From NCBI GenBank assembly GCA_019637815.1, contig JAHBUZ010000003.1, positions 1-64,000 of the forward strand: 64,000 nt of DNA, given 5' to 3'. Below, piece by piece: positions 27,914 through 38,781 of the stretch (position 1 is its first letter; every line of letters starts with the position of its first letter). The position numbers were made by a program, and so were the translations under genes. Source of the stretch: Chloroflexota bacterium. Lineage in GTDB: Bacteria; Chloroflexota; Limnocylindria; Limnocylindrales; CSP1-4. Under the pieces are notes generated by a model that saw only the letters and a list, made by a program, of their open reading frames with translations, was not told where the DNA came from and did not search any database.

Positions 27914-27989
27914 GCCGAGATAGCTCAGTTGGTAGAGCACGCGACTGAAAATCGCGGTGTCGCCAGTTCGAATCTGGCTCTCGGCACCA
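27914..27989 (+). tRNA. tRNA-Phe(GAA)
   Basis: GCCGAGA/TCTCGGC acceptor stem, anticodon stem CGCGA/TCGCG, loop CTGAAAA with GAA at 27947-27949. CCA is encoded. Confidence 0.96.
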
Positions 27990-28022
27990 AGCCCGTTCGC
28001 GGGCAGGGCGCGGTGGATCCAG

Positions 28023-28098
28023 GCGGAAGTGGCTCAGTTGGTAGAGCATCACCTTGCCAAGGTGAGGGTCGCGGGTTCGAGTCCCGTCTTCCGCTCCA
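28023..28098 (+). tRNA. tRNA-Gly(GCC)
   Basis: GCGGAAG/CTTCCGC acceptor stem, stem TCACC/GGTGA, loop TTGCCAA with GCC at 28056-28058. CCA is encoded. Confidence 0.96.
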
Positions 28099-28154
28099 TC
28101 TCCCTCCGGTGTGCGGCTCGCAGCCGGGGACGGCGCCACGGCGCACCACACCGC

Positions 28155-28228
28155 TGGCCCTTCGTCTAGTGGTAGGACGCCGGACTTTGGATCCGTGAAC
28201 CGAGGTTCGAATCCTCGAGGGCCAGCCA
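28155..28228 (+). tRNA. tRNA-Gln(TTG)
   Basis: TGGCCCT/AGGGCCA acceptor stem, CCGGA/TCCGT anticodon stem, loop CTTTGGA with TTG at 28187-28189. CCA is encoded. Confidence 0.95.
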
Positions 28229-28256
28229 CCTGCGCGTCCGCTCGCGGGACGCACCG

Positions 28257-28332
28257 GGCGACGTACCCAAGTGGTTAAGGGGACGGTCTGCAAAACCGTT
28301 ATTCTCGGGTTCGAATCCCGACGTCGCCTCCA
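28257..28332 (+). tRNA. tRNA-Cys(GCA)
   Basis: GGCGACG/CGTCGCC acceptor stem, ACGGT/ACCGT anticodon stem, loop CTGCAAA with GCA at 28290-28292. CCA is encoded. Confidence 0.95.
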
Positions 28333-28382
28333 CTCCGCACCATCCCAGCCTGCCGGCCTGCTGCCCAGGAGGCCATGACTCG

Positions 28383-29507
28383 GTGACACCAGCTGCGAGA
28401 CATGCTGCCCCCGCGCGTCGCGTCGCGTTCTATGTGCGCGAGGGACGGCATCGTGCCGTGGTCGCGCCGGTCGCGGCGAGTCTGGGTGATCGTCTGCCGT
28501 GGACCATCCACGAGGACGTCGACGAGGTGGTCGCCGGGGCGCCGGACATCCTGGTCCTCGTGTCGCTCAAGAACCTCCGACGGTTCCGCCTGGCGCTCCC
28601 GGACACGATCATCGGGTCGCTCCGACACGGCCTCATCGGGAAGCGAGGGCTCGAGCGCGTGGGTCATCGCCCGCTGTGTCGCCGCCTCGACTTCCTGTCC
28701 GTGGGTGACCAGCTCACGGTCGACCGGTACGTGGCGGCGAACGCCCGTCCCACGGAGCTCTGGTGGACGGGCTATCCGCAGGTGGACCCACTCTTCCGAG
28801 GCGACCCGCCCGCGGCGCATGGGTTACCGACGGACCAGCCTGTCGTCCTGTATGCGCCCACATGGACCGAGGGCCTCAGCTCGGTGCCACTACTCGGCGA
28901 CCGCGTCGCTGAGCTCGTCCGCGGCGATGGGCCGCCGCTGGGCATCATCATCAAGCCGCATCCGATGATCGCCACGACCCATCCGGAGTGGCTCGCCTGG
29001 TGGCATGCCGTCGCTGCGCGGGACCCACGCGTGGTCGTCGTCGATGACCGGGCCGATGTGACGGGGTACATGCTCGCGGCCGACCTCATGATCTCCGATG
29101 CCTCGAGCACCATCTTCGAGTTCCTGCCCCTCGATCGACCCATGGTCCTCATCACCAGCCCTGCCGCCGTCGAAGATCGCAGCTACGACGCCGACGATCT
29201 GCCGTGGCGGTTCCGAGCCGTCGGCGAGGATGTGACCGATGTGGCGCAGCTCGCTGACGCGGTGGCACGGGCGCTCGCCCGACCCGAGGCCCGGGCGCGT
29301 GAACGCCGGCGTGTGGCTGACCTGCTGTTCGGTCGCCAACGAGACGGCCGCAACGCCGAGCGCATCGCGGACCGGATCGTGGATCTCGCGGAACGCATGG
29401 ACCGGGGCGTAGGGCCGGAGTCCTTCGCACGTGTCGCGGAGCGGCGACGGGCGGCCAGGACCACGGCTGGAGCCGGGCTGGTCGTCCCGGTGTCCACGGA
29501 TGTCTGA
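28383..29507 (+). CDS. CDP-glycerol/CDP-ribitol glycerophosphotransferase-like protein (TagB/TagF family)
   Basis: 374 residues from a GTG. The C-terminal half has the family pattern: VVLYAPTWTEGLSSVPL (about 155-171), IIIKPHPM (190s), then LMISDASSTIFEFLPLDRPM (about 238-257), where the acidic/SS-x-x-EF motif binds the nucleotide alditol phosphate. The protein is soluble and probably peripheral at the inner membrane. TagF-type enzymes polymerise polyol phosphate chains of teichoic acids or capsules. Its stop overlaps the IspD/TarI-like gene by 8 bases, so donor synthesis and transfer are probably coupled. The acceptor and polyol are unknown. Confidence 0.83.
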   Translation: MTPAARHAAPARRVAFYVREGRHRAVVAPVAASLGDRLPWTIHEDVDEVVAGAPDILVLVSLKNLRRFRLALPDTIIGSLRHGLIGKRGLERVGHRPLCRRLDFLSVGDQLTVDRYVAANARPTELWWTGYPQVDPLFRGDPPAAHGLPTDQPVVLYAPTWTEGLSSVPLLGDRVAELVRGDGPPLGIIIKPHPMIATTHPEWLAWWHAVAARDPRVVVVDDRADVTGYMLAADLMISDASSTIFEFLPLDRPMVLITSPAAVEDRSYDADDLPWRFRAVGEDVTDVAQLADAVARALARPEARARERRRVADLLFGRQRDGRNAERIADRIVDLAERMDRGVGPESFARVAERRRAARTTAGAGLVVPVSTDV

Positions 29508-30198
29508 CGTCCAGGGCATCCTCCTCGCGGCAGGGAAGGGCGTACGGCTGGGGGAAGGACCCAAGGCGTTCCTGCAGCTTGGCGATCGCACGTTGCTGGA
29601 GCGCGCCGTCGACGTCCTGCGGGGAACGGTGGACCGGATCGTGGTCGCGGTGGGTCCGAACGACATGGAGCGAGCGCGTACCCTGGTGGGAGGGCCCAAG
29701 GTGTTGGTCATCACGGGGGGGGCGACACGCATGGAGACGCAGCAGCGTCTCGCCGAAGCCGCGGATGCGCCGTGGCTGGTGCTTCATGACGTGGTCCATC
29801 CGTCGACCACCTCGGAGGTCGTCCGACGGGTGCTGGCGGCTGCGCGCGAGTCCGGCGCCGCGAGCGCGGGTGTGCCGTCCACGGTGTTCCACTACCGCCG
29901 CGATGGCACGATCCTCTCGGCGCCGGGTGAGGCGCTCATCCCGCAGAAGCCGGTGGTCTTCCGGAGATCCGAGTTCCTCGAGGGGATCGCGCGCTTCACC
30001 CGGGACCGGTCGAGGGTCGGCCCTGAGCCGAGCACCATGGAGATCCTGGAGCTGGCCGGTCGGAGGACGACGTTCGTGCCCGGTGTCCCGGGCGCCATCA
30101 AGCTCACGTGGCCGGAGGAGCTGCACATCGCTCGTCACGGTGTCACAGCGGCCGCCGGAGCGGCCGCGACATCGGCGGTCCCGGCGGACGATGCCTGA
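29500..30198 (+). CDS. IspD/TarI-like cytidylyltransferase
   Basis: 232 residues from the ATG at 29500 inside the end of the TagF-like gene. The CTP-binding N-terminus is LLAAGKGVRLGEGPKAFLQL (residues about 7-26) with the key Gly, Arg and Lys. VAVGPND and VLHDVVHPSTTSEVVRRVL replace the IspD HDAARP region. IspD makes CDP-methylerythritol; relatives TarI and Bcs1 make CDP-ribitol, and TagD-type enzymes are a different fold. Because it overlaps a TagF-like transferase, a CDP-alditol product is more likely than an isoprenoid role. The assignment between the two is inference. Confidence 0.75.
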   Translation: MSDVQGILLAAGKGVRLGEGPKAFLQLGDRTLLERAVDVLRGTVDRIVVAVGPNDMERARTLVGGPKVLVITGGATRMETQQRLAEAADAPWLVLHDVVHPSTTSEVVRRVLAAARESGAASAGVPSTVFHYRRDGTILSAPGEALIPQKPVVFRRSEFLEGIARFTRDRSRVGPEPSTMEILELAGRRTTFVPGVPGAIKLTWPEELHIARHGVTAAAGAAATSAVPADDA

Positions 30199-30252
30199 CC
30201 CGACCCTGGCGACCATGACCACGGCCGTCCGTGCGGACCAGGAGGCGCCCGC

Positions 30253-30258
30253 TATGCT
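30253..30258 (+). promoter_or_regulatory. -10 box (TATGCT) of tRNA-Leu(TAA)
   Basis: TATGCT lies 10 bases before the tRNA 5' end, the same spacing as at tRNA-Val. Confidence 0.35.
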
Positions 30259-30268
30259 CGATGTCCAC

Positions 30269-30352
30269 GCCGAAGTGGCGGAACCGGTAGACGCGGCGGT
30301 CTTAAACACCGCTGCCCGCAAGGGCGTCAGGGTTCGAACCCCTGCTTCGGCA
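30269..30352 (+). tRNA. tRNA-Leu(TAA)
   Basis: GCCGAAG/CTTCGGC acceptor stem, long variable arm, stem GCGGT/ACCGC, loop CTTAAAC with TAA at 30303-30305. The discriminator A is followed by CGA, not CCA. It is the only one of the eight tRNA genes here without an encoded CCA, so a CCA-adding enzyme is needed. Confidence 0.95.
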
Positions 30353-30377
30353 CGATCCGTCGAGGCGGTGACAGGAG

Positions 30378-31592
30378 ATGTTGCCCGTGGCTGACCTGCA
30401 GGCGGTCATCGTGGCGACCGGACGACTGGTCGCCGGCGCCAGGCGCCTGAGTGCGCGCGACGGATCCGTGCTCACTCAGCTGGTCCATGTCGCGCACGAC
30501 GAGGTCGGCGACGTGCTGGTGGCGGTGCCACCAGGGGACCTCCAGCGTGTCGGGGTGCGTCAGGGACGACGCGGGATCCGCGTCGTGGCAGGCGGCGCGA
30601 CCACGACGAAGACGCTCGAAGCGCTCGTGGCATCCGGGACCAGCCCCTGGGTGGTGTCCCTGGACGTCGCGGACGGTCCCGTCACCGCGGAGGTCGTCCG
30701 AGCGGTCGTGACGTCCGCCCGCGAGCACGGCGTGGCAGCGGCCGCCCGTCGGTCGATCGGCGCCCAGTATCGTCCGGATGGGTCGTTCCTCGCGCCGCCG
30801 GAGGGTGCTGTCACGCCCACCACGCCGGTGTGCTTCACTCGGCAGGACTACCTCGACGCATGCCGCGGAGACGTGGTCCCGGAGGAGGCGGATCCATCGC
30901 CGGTCGGGATCCTGGCGCGTGCCGGACGGCGAGCCGCATTCGTGCTCGTCCCGAGCGATGACCCCGAGTCCTGTGCGGAGGCAGCCGACGTGGTGCCGGC
31001 CGAGTCGCGTGATGTCGTCACGCTGGCGACCGTGCCGCTCGTGGGTCGGGATCGAGGGCAGATCACGTGGTCGTTCGATCCGCGCTATGGGTCGGGTGAC
31101 ACGGAGCCGCTCGAGCGGATGGTCCGGCGCCTCGTCGCGATGGCGGACCTGACCGACGTGGAGACGGTCGTGGGGATCCCGGAGGCAGGGAGCATCCCAG
31201 CTCACGTGTTCGCCGCGCTCACCGGGCGGCGCCTCGCGCTCGCCTCCATCTGGCACGCCGACCGTCCGGACGTCATCGCGTTCCGGGAGGACCATGACGC
31301 GACGCCGATCGGTGTCAAGCGCATATACGGCCTGCGCGCGGGCGAGCGCGTGCTCATCGTCGAGGACGAGGTCACATCCGGACGGACCGTCGTCAACTGC
31401 GTGACGGCACTCAGGGCCGCCGGGGTCATCGTGGACCAGGTGGTCACGCTGTTCGCAGTGGATCACGACGAGATGCGGGAGCGGCTCGCCGGCATCGGGG
31501 TCGCCATCCATGCGGCCGAGTGGGTCGATCCCCGGCACGTCGGTGGGCTCTGGCGTCCCGGGGCAGACGGGACCAACGGGCTACCTGCCTGA
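30378..31592 (+). CDS. Fusion of a degenerate IspD-like domain and a type I phosphoribosyltransferase domain
   Basis: 404 residues. Residues 1-175 align along their length with the IspD-like protein at 29500: VLVAVPPGDL with IVVAVGPNDM, VVAGGATT with VITGGATR, PWVVSLDV with PWLVLHDV, and YRPDGSFL with YRRDGTIL. The CTP-binding Gly-Arg-Lys loop is lost (VATGRLVAGARRL), so this half is probably inactive. Residues about 215-400 are a type I phosphoribosyltransferase: VVGIPEAGSIPAHVFAAL and the PRPP motif RVLIVEDEVTSGRTVVN (about 330-346). It would use PRPP with an unknown acceptor. Only a tRNA-Leu gene separates it from its paralogue. The fusion order is unusual. Confidence 0.8.
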   Translation: MLPVADLQAVIVATGRLVAGARRLSARDGSVLTQLVHVAHDEVGDVLVAVPPGDLQRVGVRQGRRGIRVVAGGATTTKTLEALVASGTSPWVVSLDVADGPVTAEVVRAVVTSAREHGVAAAARRSIGAQYRPDGSFLAPPEGAVTPTTPVCFTRQDYLDACRGDVVPEEADPSPVGILARAGRRAAFVLVPSDDPESCAEAADVVPAESRDVVTLATVPLVGRDRGQITWSFDPRYGSGDTEPLERMVRRLVAMADLTDVETVVGIPEAGSIPAHVFAALTGRRLALASIWHADRPDVIAFREDHDATPIGVKRIYGLRAGERVLIVEDEVTSGRTVVNCVTALRAAGVIVDQVVTLFAVDHDEMRERLAGIGVAIHAAEWVDPRHVGGLWRPGADGTNGLPA

Positions 31593-31609
31593 CGGCGCAG
31601 GCACCCGGC

Positions 31610-32854
31610 TCAGCGGCCGCGCCGCAATCCCCGCAGGAACGCCTTTCGCTCGGGCGGCGGTGGCGTGGTGACCTGGGCCGATCGGCCAGGCTCCTCGCCG
31701 CGGAGTCGCCCGGCGAGTCGGCGCAGCGCTCCCGCGGGTGCGGACGCGGGACCGCTGATCACGACCGGGATGCCCTCGTTGACGGCCTTGAGGTAGAGGA
31801 GGGGATCGTAGGGGATCTCGGTGTCGACGGGCACCTGGAGTGACCGACGCAGGTCCTCTGCCTTCACCAGCCCGGCCGCGAAGATGTGGTTGAGGACGAG
31901 CACGACGCGCTCGCGGATGTCCTCGTACTCGGCGATCTGGTCGAGCAGCAGGCGGGTCGCTCGCACGGCGGGGATCTCCGGGCTCACCACCACGACGACC
32001 TTGTCCGCGCGGGCGAGCAGCACCTGGGCACGCTCGTCGAGTGCCGAGCCGCCGTCCACGATGACGTAGTCATAGCTCGCCCGGAGCGCATCGAGGACTC
32101 GCTCGACCTGGTCCTGCGTGAGCGGGACCGCCGCGTCCGGGTGGGTGGGCGAGGTGAACACGGAGACGCCGCTGGGATGCTGGAGCGCATAGGTCCGGAC
32201 GACCTCGGCGTCGTCGATGCCGTTGAGGTCCCGACCCAGGTCAGCGACGCTCATCCGGGGCGCGAGGTCCAACTGTGTCGCGACCTGGCCCCACCAGGGA
32301 TCGAGGTCGAGGATCGCGACCGGGCTGGCGCCACGGTCAGCGAGCCGGATCGCGGTGTTGACGGCGATGGTCGTCGTGCCCACGCCGCCCTTGGCCGCAA
32401 GGAAGCCGAACATGCGTGGCCCGGGTCGCTGGTCCGCACCGGGTCGGTCGGCCGTCGGGACGGGCAGGCTCACCTTCGGCCGACGCAGCAGGCCGTCGAC
32501 GCGAGCCGCCAGCTCCTGGCTGTCGAGCGGACGCGCCATCACGTCGTCGGCGCCGGCCTCGAGCAGCTCGATGCGCTCCTCGACGGAGTCGGACGAGGCG
32601 ATGGCGAGGAATGGCACCCGGGCGATGGCCGGATCGGCCTTCAGCTCGCCGATGACCGTCGTCGGGCCCGCGTCCGGCGCGTGGTCGAGGATGATCACCT
32701 CGGCATCACGGGCGAGCTCGGCGGCGGATGGGCCATACGGCGTCGCCACGACGCGCACGCCAAGCCCGGAGAGGGGCGCGGCGATGGCGCGCGCGGCATC
32801 CCGGTCGGCGCACAGGAGGAGCAGGGTGCGGGTCGGTCGCTCGGGTCGTTCCAC
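31610..32854 (-). CDS. CpaE-like protein: receiver-like domain plus MinD/ParA-type ATPase
   Basis: 414 residues from the GTG at 32854, which lies 7 bases after a TAGGGT box on the minus strand; a GTG at 32863 is an alternative. Residues 1-125 resemble a response-regulator receiver (LLLLCADRDAARAI; VIILDH; FLAIASSDSVEERI; ADDVMARPLD). The ATPase part starts with deviant Walker A KGGVGTTT (155-162), then ILDLDPWWGQVATQL and YVIVDGGSALDERAQVLL. CpaE proteins place Flp/Tad pili at the pole, and relatives such as TadZ do the same; ParA relatives segregate DNA. No other pilus gene is nearby. The frame open upstream to 33727 is repeat-derived and not part of the gene. Confidence 0.85.
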   Translation of the reverse strand: MERPERPTRTLLLLCADRDAARAIAAPLSGLGVRVVATPYGPSAAELARDAEVIILDHAPDAGPTTVIGELKADPAIARVPFLAIASSDSVEERIELLEAGADDVMARPLDSQELAARVDGLLRRPKVSLPVPTADRPGADQRPGPRMFGFLAAKGGVGTTTIAVNTAIRLADRGASPVAILDLDPWWGQVATQLDLAPRMSVADLGRDLNGIDDAEVVRTYALQHPSGVSVFTSPTHPDAAVPLTQDQVERVLDALRASYDYVIVDGGSALDERAQVLLARADKVVVVVSPEIPAVRATRLLLDQIAEYEDIRERVVLVLNHIFAAGLVKAEDLRRSLQVPVDTEIPYDPLLYLKAVNEGIPVVISGPASAPAGALRRLAGRLRGEEPGRSAQVTTPPPPERKAFLRGLRRGR

Positions 32855-32861
32855 TCGGTGC

Positions 32862-32867
32862 ACCCTA
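32862..32867 (-). promoter_or_regulatory. -10 box (TAGGGT) of the CpaE-like gene
   Basis: On the minus strand TAGGGT ends 7 bases before the GTG at 32854, a leaderless arrangement like those of recJ and def. Confidence 0.4.
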
Positions 32868-33002
32868 GCAGGGAGCGGGGAGGTCTGGATCGGTCCGATG
32901 GTGGGGGTGATCGGGTAGGACCACGGGCGGTCGATGCGCGGGGTCCGGGTCGCGGCGGGGCCCTGTCGGTGGGTGTTGGCGGTGCGGCTGGAGCGCCCCG
33001 GG

Positions 33003-33280
33003 TCGGTGGGTGCTGAGCCGGGGCGCGGCCTCGACCGGTGGCGTGGATGAGCCCGGGGTGCCGCTGCGCCGCCCGCGGCCGGTGGGGTGCTGAGCCTGGG
33101 AGATACGCCCGCAGCCGGAGTTGTGCTGAGCCTGGCACCTGCCCGCAGCCGGTGGAGCGCTGAGCCTCGGCGATGTGTGCCCGCAGCCGGTGTAGTGCTC
33201 GACCTGCGGCGGACGGCCGCTCCCCGCCCCTTCGGCGTACGCGATGGACGTCGTCGCAGCCGGTGTGGTGCTCGATTCGC
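33003..33280 (-). repeat. Repeat array A (about 28-bp units, 34-38 bp and 73 bp spacing)
   Basis: Five clear units start at 33072, 33108, 33142, 33180 and 33253, with two weaker ones near 33003 and 33032. The consensus on the plus strand is CCCGCAGCCGGTGTAGTGCT followed by CGACCTG; the best unit is 33180-33207. Spacings are 36, 34, 38 and 73 bases. The core GTGTAGTGCTCGAC is the reverse complement of the core of array B. Confidence 0.8.
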
Positions 33281-33400
33281 GGGAGATGTGACCCGGGGAG
33301 CGTCACCCGACGCTGGACGCCATGTCTGACGCCTCCATGGGCGTGGACCGAGTCGGTGTCGCACCCGCGCCGGGCAGCTGGCCTCGGATGGATCCGTGAC

Positions 33401-33715
33401 GTCGAGCACTACACGGGCCCCAAGTGCTCCGGGAGCGTCCGGCGTGGCCGTGGAGCGGGTCGTGCCGTGGGATCGACTACTACACGGGCTCTGCAAGCGC
33501 CCCCGGGCGCCCCGGGCGGCCCGCTGGCCGGGCCCGCCCTGGACCTCGAGCACTACACGGGCTTCGCGTGACGCCCCGGACGCCCTTGGTGCGGACCTCG
33601 GCTCGCCGCGCCGTGGGATCGAGCACGACACGGACTCCAAGTGCGCCCCGGACACCCCGGACCCCCCGCTGCGGGCCCCACCCGCCGCGCCATAGACGTC
33701 GAGCACTACACGGGC
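33401..33715 (+). repeat. Repeat array B (18-bp core, 71-80 bp spacing)
   Basis: Five copies of the core GTCGAGCACTACACGGGC start at 33401, 33472, 33545, 33618 and 33698 (spacings 71, 73, 73, 80). Copies 1 and 5 are identical and the others differ by one to three bases. Similarity extends about 20 bases downstream (CCAAGTGCGCCCCGGACGCC and variants), so the full unit is about 40 bp. It is inverted relative to array A. Confidence 0.85.
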
Positions 33716-33842
33716 TGTGACAGCCACCGCCCACCTTCCCCGGTACTCGGACTCTCATCACCACGCTCCACGCGGCCGACGGGTCGTCCGGCGGTGACCT
33801 GCCTCCGCACCCGTCGTCGGACCGGCCCCGTCGAAGCCTTGC

Positions 33843-36924: not shown

Positions 36925-38781
36925 CTAGTTCGGGACGCGCTTGTTGGGCGTGCCTGACCCCACGGTCACCACGATGTTCGCGGCCTGCGAGGGATCGTCC
37001 TCGGTCACTGCGGTGACGTCGAACTCCTGCTGGAGGGTGGCGATGGTCTCCGGGAACTGGGACTCGCCACCGTTGTAGACCGTGATCACGGTGTCCGTGA
37101 AGTCATCCTGCTCGGCACGGCCGCCGTTCACGGGCGCCAGGATGGCGCCCATCCCGAGGTACTCGAGGTACTCCGCGATGCGGGTCGACCTGGTGTTCGC
37201 GGCACGCGTCCCGTTGAGGACATGCACGACCGCGCCCTCCGACGCGAGCGTCTGCTGCTTGGCGATGAGCTTGGGGTCCGTCTTGAACACGTCCTGGACG
37301 GCCTTGCGCATCTTCGACGTGTTCGCGACGAGGGCATACCGGCCGTTCCGCCGGCAGAGGGCGCTGTTGGCGACGCTCGCGGTCTGGCAGTTGGTGGTAT
37401 AGGGCGCCAGCTGGAGCGAGATCCGGTCGTCCAGGTTGATCCGCTGGGCGAGCTCGGCAAGCTGCGGGAAGAGCCGGGACGGGATGTCCGTCTTGATGTT
37501 CTTCTTGACGATCTGGAGGTACTTGTCGATGCCGCCGGGCTGGAGGATGGAGCCGATGTCCAGCTGGTTCCGGACGGCCGCGATGACCCGCATCTGGCGC
37601 GTCGAGCGCTCGAAGTCCGAGCTCGCGTGTCGCGATCGCGCGTACGCGAGGGCATCCCCGCCCCCGAAGTAGTGATAGCCGGGGGCCACATAGAGCTTGA
37701 GCGTCCCGCGACCGTCGTTCGAGTTGTAGCGCACGTCGTACAGCGGCAGCTGGACGTCCACGACCGCACCGCCGAGCGCGTTCACGACATCCATGAAGCC
37801 GTTCATGTCCACCTGGACGTAGTAGGGGATATCGATCCCGAGCGACTGGCCGAGGATGCTCTTCAGCGCGCCGTACCCACGCTCCCGGTCGGTCTTGCCC
37901 GGGAAGAGGTCGCTCCGGCCCTTGGTCAGCGAGTAGACCTGGTTGGCCCGGTACCCCCACACGTTGCCGAGGTTCCGCGAGGCGGCGGTGTTCCTGGGCA
38001 TGTCCAGCCCGACCGTGTCCCGGGGCACCCCGATGAACGCGACCTCGTTGGTGTCCGGGTCGATGCTCACCACGATCATCGTATCCGTCAGCAGGCCGTT
38101 GGTGCCCACGAGCAGGATGTTCAGGCGGCCCTTGCTGATGTCCCAGGGCACGGTCGGGGTGGGCTCCGGGGCATCGGTCGGCTCGACGGTCGGCGTGGCA
38201 TCCGGGTCCAGCGATGCGGGCGGATCCGTCTCGAGCGGCAGGAGGGACGGCAGCGGCTCGATCGATTCGTCGGGGTCCGGGCTCTCGTCCGCGCCGGGGT
38301 CCTCCCCGCAGTCCTGGTCCAGGCAGTCGATCGTCTCGATGAGGCTGTAGGTCTGGCGAGCGACGGCGGCGTGGCTCACGAACAGCACCGTGATCACCGC
38401 CACGAGCCCCACCATCGAGCCCACGCGCCGGACCGTGGCATCCCGGACGCCGCTCGGCGCTCGTGCGACCCAGAACGCGTCCAGGACGGACAGCAGGCGC
38501 CACACGAGGTCCACGCCGATGCCGATGACCAGGTACTGGAGCCAGGTCAGGTCCGAGAACTGCGCCGCGAAGTCCTTGACGCCCATGGAGAAGGCGATGC
38601 CCGCGATGAGCGCCCCGGCGATCAGCCACGGCACCATCCAGACGAGACCACGCAGGAACCGCCGGGCATACATCTGGCCGAGGCCCGGCAGGATGAGCGA
38701 GAAGAAGGCGGCCGCGAAGGAGCTGTGGCGCGGCTCGTACGCGCTCTGGCGTGGCTCCGGCGGCGGCGCAGCAGGGTGCAT
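36925..38781 (-). CDS. LytR-CpsA-Psr (LCP) family cell-wall glycopolymer ligase
   Basis: 618 residues from the ATG at 38781, 8 bases after a TAGGAT box. N-terminal part: three membrane stretches (about 26-67, 78-105, 118-141; the first contains LPGLGQMYARRFLRG), then an acidic Pro/Asp/Glu linker (150-215). LCP domain (about 220-430): LLVGTN, IGVPRDTVG, then DALAYARSRHASSDFERSTR with the conserved arginines for pyrophosphate lipid binding. LytR_C-type domain (about 500-605): VHVLNGTRAANTRSTRIAEY. LCP enzymes attach teichoic acid-like or capsular polymers to peptidoglycan or proteins. It could act on the product of the TagF-like locus. Confidence 0.93.
   Translation of the reverse strand: MHPAAPPPEPRQSAYEPRHSSFAAAFFSLILPGLGQMYARRFLRGLVWMVPWLIAGALIAGIAFSMGVKDFAAQFSDLTWLQYLVIGIGVDLVWRLLSVLDAFWVARAPSGVRDATVRRVGSMVGLVAVITVLFVSHAAVARQTYSLIETIDCLDQDCGEDPGADESPDPDESIEPLPSLLPLETDPPASLDPDATPTVEPTDAPEPTPTVPWDISKGRLNILLVGTNGLLTDTMIVVSIDPDTNEVAFIGVPRDTVGLDMPRNTAASRNLGNVWGYRANQVYSLTKGRSDLFPGKTDRERGYGALKSILGQSLGIDIPYYVQVDMNGFMDVVNALGGAVVDVQLPLYDVRYNSNDGRGTLKLYVAPGYHYFGGGDALAYARSRHASSDFERSTRQMRVIAAVRNQLDIGSILQPGGIDKYLQIVKKNIKTDIPSRLFPQLAELAQRINLDDRISLQLAPYTTNCQTASVANSALCRRNGRYALVANTSKMRKAVQDVFKTDPKLIAKQQTLASEGAVVHVLNGTRAANTRSTRIAEYLEYLGMGAILAPVNGGRAEQDDFTDTVITVYNGGESQFPETIATLQQEFDVTAVTEDDPSQAANIVVTVGSGTPNKRVPN

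Follow-up and report, generated by a model that had tools for sequence, protein, structure and literature searches.

A TagF-like transferase, a cytidylyltransferase and an enzyme using phosphoribosyl pyrophosphate (PRPP) are known to work together in Haemophilus influenzae type b (Hib), where cytidine diphosphate (CDP)-ribitol is supplied by the reductase/cytidylyltransferase Bcs1, ribose is added by a domain of phosphoribosyltransferase (PRTase) fold together with a phosphatase that removes the 5-phosphate, and Bcs3, which uses PRPP, joins a TagF-like domain to one of PRTase fold (PMC10299916). In TagF-type enzymes, the third residue after the TagF histidine is Pro in those acting on glycerol and Gly in those acting on ribitol (PMC10299916). 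A related arrangement is present in the b-type flagellin glycosylation cluster of Pseudomonas aeruginosa, in which a nucleoside triphosphate (NTP) transferase adjoins a TagF-like domain, and the published model assigns the making of CDP-(dimethyl)threonine to PA1090 and its transfer to PA1091 (PMC11833859, PMC10714395). Published models extend the pairing of a TagF-family enzyme with a dedicated cytidylyltransferase beyond glycerol and ribitol, and the locus described here appears to add to this module a PRPP-using enzyme and an inactivated duplicate of the cytidylyltransferase that still looks selected. It was found in a Chloroflexota bacterium (class Limnocylindria, order Limnocylindrales; assembly GCA_019637815.1) on contig JAHBUZ010000003.1, of which the first 64,000 nucleotides were analysed (the window), and it consists of a TagF-like gene, an IspD-like gene and a gene encoding a fusion of an IspD-like domain with a PRTase domain (the fusion). 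All features named in the initial annotation of this DNA are present, and the three reading frames and the tRNA-Leu gene that lies among them are intact at the expected coordinates.

The N-terminal half of the fusion is, by its sequence, a true duplicate of the neighbouring IspD-like protein, as the alignment made in the initial annotation had indicated. The two are 37% identical over 187 amino acids (aa; E=9.5e-24), with an alignment score of 272, whereas 500 shuffles gave at most 65, and in a local comparison the N-terminal half matched the IspD-like protein at 1.5e-25 and its next best relative at 3.6e-8. In a maximum-likelihood tree of the two paralogues and 28 other IspD and TarI-like rows they form a joint clade with support of 99/99, and both are long-branched, so that their placement relative to other IspDs is unsure. 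The match of this half to PF01128 is weak (20.8 bits, under the curated cut-off). An AlphaFold2 model built on a 16-row alignment returned an IspD-like domain, with a predicted local distance difference test score (pLDDT) of about 72-95 by block except in the lost cytidine triphosphate (CTP) loop and two weaker blocks, and the best Foldseek matches in the PDB were IspD, TarI and human ISPD (best E=2.9e-12).

The same domain is predicted to be a catalytically dead cytidylyltransferase. The loss of its Gly-Arg-Lys CTP loop, already remarked upon in the initial annotation, is confirmed in the Gly and Lys of that loop and is accompanied by the loss of the GGATR Arg, the HD His and the IKLT Lys. 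Identity between the paralogues at first, second and third codon positions is 0.58, 0.63 and 0.45, compared with 0.34, 0.26 and 0.36 in shuffled pairs; since second positions are held while third positions are near saturation, the fusion's N-terminal half diverged under constraint at the protein level and not as a decaying pseudogene.

The IspD-like protein, on the other hand, keeps the CTP site expected of a live enzyme, in agreement with the earlier reading, as judged by alignment and by a table of motifs (AAGxGxR..PK, here AAGKGVRLGEGPK, GGATR, HD and AIKLT). Its polyol-phosphate site is altered, with HDVVHP in place of HDAxRP and without the DR..QTPQ stretch, which is carried by all other rows compared except one divergent protein, and for these reasons it was not filed as either IspD or TarI. 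Ordinary IspDs from a distant family of the phylum share about 39% identity with it, and because the genome also encodes a separate canonical IspD-IspF protein with the usual motifs, the IspD-like protein can be regarded as spare. The altered acceptor site would fit an unusual phosphorylated group.

The assignment of the first gene to the TagF-like transferases is likewise well founded, with a PF04464 score of 84.2 bits (curated cut-off 22.1) and with the active-site motifs R-H82-G, H193-P194 and D239-A-S241-S242 (D-x-SS) retained in alignments. It is the sole PF04464 gene in the genome, which is 87% complete; the best match among 40 relatives is 36% identical over half the length only, and no close relative was found in the phylum draw at 1e-12. 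The third residue after its TagF histidine, as read from alignments, appears to be Ile. In small-genome relatives at the level of the order (four loci in four genomes), a TagF-like gene adjoins a cytidylyltransferase-SDR fusion, an arrangement of the CDP-ribitol type, and the TagF-like genes of these loci have Gly at that position.

The C-terminal half of the fusion is recognized, from its motifs and modelled fold, as a type I PRTase with intact PRPP and pyrophosphate (PPi) loops. The PRPP motif VEDEVTSGRT pointed out in the initial annotation is thus real, and the structure prediction recommended there gave an IspD/TarI-like N-terminal half and a type I PRTase C-terminal half. Pfam scores were 25.1 bits for PRTase_2 (PF15609, cut-off 28.8) and 22.6 bits for Pribosyltran, both under the curated cut-offs; the core of the AlphaFold2 model reached a pLDDT of 80-93, and Foldseek matched it to type I PRTases (orotate and adenine), the best being an orotate PRTase (E=1.4e-8, probability 1.00). 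The catalytic loop of orotate PRTases, RKxxKxxG, is absent, and FREDHDATPIG stands in its place. A pattern and tblastn scan of GTDB contigs gave at least 44 relatives of this half, for which neighbourhoods of 6 kb were fetched. A few of those listed are PRPP synthases; the closest among the matches listed are actinobacterial PRTases of about 190 aa (phmmer E down to 4e-13), and the next-closest group comprises the PRTases of tellurite-resistance (Ter) operons. Common to the fusion and both groups are a G-x-x-[EA] PPi loop, F-x-E-x-H and [ED]DE-x-[TS]-[TS]-G-x-T. No homologue of the whole fusion was present among the 44 relatives listed, the PRTase alignment pattern had no match in viral contigs, and a literature search on this PRTase group and on IspD pseudoenzymes returned nothing relevant. 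In Actinobacteria, the PRTase of about 190 aa belongs to a conserved cluster, seen at 12 loci, with a P-loop protein, a GT9 glycosyltransferase, an unmatched 378-aa protein, an SDR, a histidine phosphatase, a NUDIX protein and sometimes DUF4254. Within the phylum of the present genome, one member carries TerD-like genes clustered with a HAD-like gene, a gene for another enzyme and one for a PRTase_2 protein, in a Ter-type arrangement.

The fusion of a pseudo-IspD domain with a PRTase appears to be a new architecture, seen in one genome. The initial annotation had suggested a search for the same domain order elsewhere; 176 further genomes of the class did not contain it, nor did the 399 others of an even 400-genome draw of the phylum, and seven partial matches in that draw are unfused PRTases, UMP-synthase-type proteins or IspDs. 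Nor were relatives of the fusion found in GTDB contigs (close-relative scan), plasmids, viral contigs or phages, and libraries of defence and phage genes gave only a trivial match to DrmC (E=0.008).

The genomic setting of the three genes is that of a variable site. The order tRNA-Leu, -Leu, -Val, lemA, M48 peptidase, tRNA-Phe, -Gly, -Gln, -Cys, tRNA-Leu(UAA), tadZ-like, rpsF, ssb and rpsR is kept in relatives, two of which have gaps of only 54 and 164 bp between tRNA-Cys and tRNA-Leu, with tadZ directly after, while in others the gaps are filled with other genes and in one of these a tyrosine recombinase adjoins tRNA-Cys. The cassette fills a variable gap on either side of tRNA-Leu, with the TagF-like and IspD-like genes before it and the fusion after it, so that the earlier warning of a partly accidental linkage was justified. 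The tRNA gene noted between the paralogues is confirmed as tRNA-Leu(UAA), the single match to that gene in the genome. That the cassette carried in a tRNA-Leu of its own found no support, given this sole match and its same place in relatives, and the gene is probably native to the site. Several contigs break at the tRNA cluster, including that of a genome of the same genus; the flanks match the lineage, so that a chimeric contig is less likely. Horizontal acquisition of the cassette is probable, and its GC content at third codon positions (0.81-0.84, compared with about 0.87-0.93 in flanking core genes such as lemA, M48, rpsF, ssb and rpsR) is consistent with such an origin. No direct repeats that might serve as attachment sites were found beyond the tRNA and paralogue similarity. 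At the place corresponding to 27914-31610, a group of relatives carries unrelated cargo, for example DNA methyltransferase-like, metal-dependent hydrolase-like and site-2-protease-like genes and recombinases.

As a possible function, put forward tentatively, the three genes would form a cassette for the synthesis and transfer of a phosphorylated group activated as a CDP derivative, and the dead IspD domain would join its live counterpart and keep a PRPP-using enzyme attached to it; the role of such a cassette is probably the decoration of the cell surface. The PRTase would move 5-phosphoribose from PRPP onto an acceptor, the live IspD-like protein would couple the sugar 5-phosphate so formed, or else the phosphate of another polyol or of an amino acid, to cytidine monophosphate, and the TagF-like protein would pass the phosphoryl group from the CDP carrier to a surface glycan, lipid or protein. 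The dead domain may pair with the live IspD-like protein in a putative heterodimer and so hold the PRTase beside it, with the effect that the product is handed on or that activity is tied to the supply of PRPP. IspD enzymes are dimeric, and an arm of one subunit reaches into the site of its partner; because of this, and because the fold is kept, a dead copy would be suited to act as a docking half. The product of the PRTase would keep its 5-phosphate, which the cytidylyltransferase needs, and in the proposed order neither a reductase nor a phosphatase of the Hib type would be required. This specific order, from PRPP to CDP-(ribosyl-X) to a TagF phosphodiester with a dead cytidylyltransferase as docking half, would amount to a new biosynthetic logic and is, taken as a whole, unlikely. 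If the dead half does dock on the live one, it would represent a pseudoenzyme whose retained dimer interface serves to recruit a new activity. The locus would also link a little-studied group of PRTases (actinobacterial GT9-cluster, Ter-system, F-x-E-x-H) to surface chemistry.

The cassette model draws on the overlap of the first two genes, the fusion on the same strand, the strongly supported sister paralogues, both predicted folds, the shared PRTase loops, the protein-level constraint on the dead copy, the recurrence of TagF/NTP-transferase pairs, the presence of a separate canonical IspD-IspF and the filling of a variable site by genes of lower third-position GC. Several observations weigh against it. 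The fusion is known from one genome only, a metagenome-type assembly, and a single case gives no measure of whether the three genes are conserved together; the hood of the PRTase is of low confidence in a dedicated model of the C-terminal half (pLDDT about 32-35); and tRNA-Leu splits the genes, which no promoter or terminator signal joins or parts, a search for sigma-70 promoters and terminators at 27.8-31.8 kb having found none and being uninformative for this organism. The heterodimer is putative, and so are the acceptor and the compound carried on CDP. A last point concerns gene context, on which the initial annotation had staked its own proposal of a surface polymer, expecting it to fail if close homologues of the fusion always lay beside nucleotide salvage genes and never near TagF-like genes: in the 6 kb fetched for each of the 44 listed relatives of the C-terminal half, no relative of TagF or IspD occurs, but their neighbours are Ter genes or GT9, SDR and NUDIX genes and not those of nucleotide salvage.

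That proposal, of a ribosyl- or alditol-phosphate polymer, rested on a parallel with Hib, in which the IspD-like protein would make a CDP-alditol, the TagF-like protein would polymerise the alditol-phosphate and the PRTase would add ribose. Its ingredients stand insofar as a TagF-family protein, a live cytidylyltransferase and a domain with a PRPP loop share one locus, much as Bcs3 combines TagF-like and PRTase-fold domains with PRPP (PMC10299916), and order-level relatives do place TagF-like genes beside CDP-ribitol-type fusions. On the other hand, the cassette has no Bcs1-like reductase-cytidylyltransferase and no HAD phosphatase, the HDAxRP Arg and QTPQ are lost from the IspD-like protein, the apparent Ile of the TagF-like protein is neither Pro nor Gly, and the C-terminal half had no PDB sequence match to Bcs3 CriT/gPRT at E<1 and did not find it among its top 50 structural matches, a comparison made without direct superposition. 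The Hib parallel was therefore not upheld, and a ribosyl-alditol-phosphate polymer is considered improbable. The dead partner domain and the missing Lys-rich flexible loop of orotate PRTases would also suit a non-catalytic fusion that senses PRPP or nucleotides, binds the live cytidylyltransferase and tunes the supply of CDP precursors. Regulators of PRTase fold do exist, such as PyrR and PurR, but the PRPP loop, the PPi loop and F-x-E-x-H are all kept here, although a protein that only bound its ligand would be expected to manage with less, and such a sensor is an unlikely explanation.

It is also conceivable, if rather improbable, that the product of the cassette is a small molecule resembling a nucleoside and that the surface is not modified. 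Ter systems have been proposed to make a compound of this kind, and the C-terminal half resembles both their PRTase_2 and the actinobacterial PRTase that clusters with GT9, SDR, NUDIX, histidine phosphatase and DUF4254 genes; against this, the PF15609 score is under the cut-off, the cassette has no ATP-grasp, StiP-like, aldolase or TerD genes, and a TagF-family transferase is present. Accidental linkage, by which unrelated genes gathered in a tRNA-cluster insertion spot and the fusion is a recent oddity of one lineage, would agree with the unrelated cargo of the same gap in relatives, including the recombinase beside tRNA-Cys, and with the absence of the fusion from every other genome searched. 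The live and dead paralogues are, however, closest to each other and share derived losses, so that at least these two belong together, and the TagF-like and IspD-like genes overlap, with a similar pair recurring in Haladaptatus; linkage by chance alone is accordingly held to be quite unlikely.

Coordinates of the features of the locus (positions in the window)
Feature	Position	Strand	Evidence
Cluster of tRNA-Phe, -Gly, -Gln and -Cys, bounding the insertion spot on the left	27914..28332	+	ARAGORN, Rfam; same order in five relatives
TagF-like protein (CDP-alditol phosphotransferase family), 374 aa	28383..29507	+	PF04464, E=1.1e-23
IspD-like cytidylyltransferase, 232 aa, ATG 29500	29500..30198	+	Pfam PF01128, E=2.9e-27
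tRNA-Leu(UAA), between the two paralogues	30269..30353	+	ARAGORN, Rfam
Fusion, 404 aa (401 from GTG 30387): pseudo-IspD domain and PRTase domain	30378..31592	+	
Predicted pseudo-cytidylyltransferase domain of IspD fold, lacking the CTP loop, the GGATR Arg, the HD His and the catalytic Lys	30387..30980	+	
Predicted type I PRTase domain: GIPEAGSIP (PPi loop), FREDH (hood), VEDEVTSGRT (PRPP loop)	31050..31530	+	
TadZ/ParA-like gene, C-terminal part of the open reading frame 31610-33727	31610..32860 (upper end approximate)	-	Pfam AAA_31, synteny

The TagF-like and IspD-like genes overlap by 8 nucleotides (nt), and the gene for the fusion starts 24 nt past tRNA-Leu. Its start is probably GTG 30387 rather than ATG 30378, because an AGGAG that directly abuts the ATG lies 9 nt upstream of the GTG, and because the N-terminus read from the GTG (VADLQAV) lines up with the start of the IspD-like protein (MSDVQGI). 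The TadZ-like gene is the conserved right edge of the insertion spot and lies outside the cassette. Between it and rpsF, at 33070-33720, a short repeat built around GTCGAGCACTACACGGGCT occurs seven times when up to 3 mismatches are allowed (0.04 expected), at intervals of about 71-80 nt, with two copies on the minus strand followed by five on the plus strand; the N-terminal part of the open reading frame 31610-33727 runs through this array and is probably not coding. A LytR-CpsA-Psr gene (36925-38781, minus strand), a possible ligase of cell-wall polymers, was considered as a further member of the system and rejected because it is kept in the same neighbourhood in relatives that do not have the cassette.

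In comparison with known systems, the PRTase half shares with the PRTase_2 (PF15609) of Ter systems the GxxE PPi loop, the E-x-H hood and the DDExT[ST]GxT loop, but it falls under the cut-off of that family, whereas the PRTases of Ter systems extend further at the C-terminus and sit in Ter operons; the neighbours of the fusion are the TagF-like and IspD-like genes, tRNAs and tadZ, and there is no Ter neighbourhood. The actinobacterial PRTase, its closest relative among the matches listed, reads F-x-EPHA...YG...VLIVDDEITTG; in those matches it stands alone, has no IspD domain and has no TagF or IspD neighbour. Likeness to IspD and TarI (PF01128) extends to fold and CTP residues in the IspD-like protein and to the fold in the N-terminal half of the fusion, and the differences lie in the missing HDAxRP Arg and QTPQ of the former and the missing CTP and catalytic residues of the latter. 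The TagF-like protein resembles TagF, TarF and TarL in its C-terminal PF04464 match and its His, HP and D-x-SS motifs, and it differs in being a short, single-unit protein whose residue three past the His is unlike that of the glycerol and ribitol types.

At the level of whole modules, Hib Bcs3 CriT and the glycan PRPP transferases also pair a PRTase fold with a TagF-like enzyme (PMC10299916), but they share no sequence match with the fusion and rely on different accessory enzymes. A Haladaptatus plasmid carries a small TagF-like gene (the two TagF-like proteins being 28% identical) that overlaps an IspD/NTP-transferase gene, which agrees with the present pair of CDP-glycerol glycerophosphotransferase-family and NTP-transferase genes in size, order and overlap, although no fusion or PRTase is present there and a glycerophosphodiesterase gene comes next. 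The P. aeruginosa PA1088-PA1091 and C. difficile CD0240-CD0244 clusters have in common with it an NTP transferase and a TagF-like phosphotransferase, with CDP-threonine as the proposed donor, and differ in using a HAD enzyme and a methyltransferase and no PRTase (PMC10714395, PMC11833859). A TagF-family transferase and an adjoining IspD/NTP-transferase form a recurring module, which by analogy with these systems would move several kinds of phosphorylated group.

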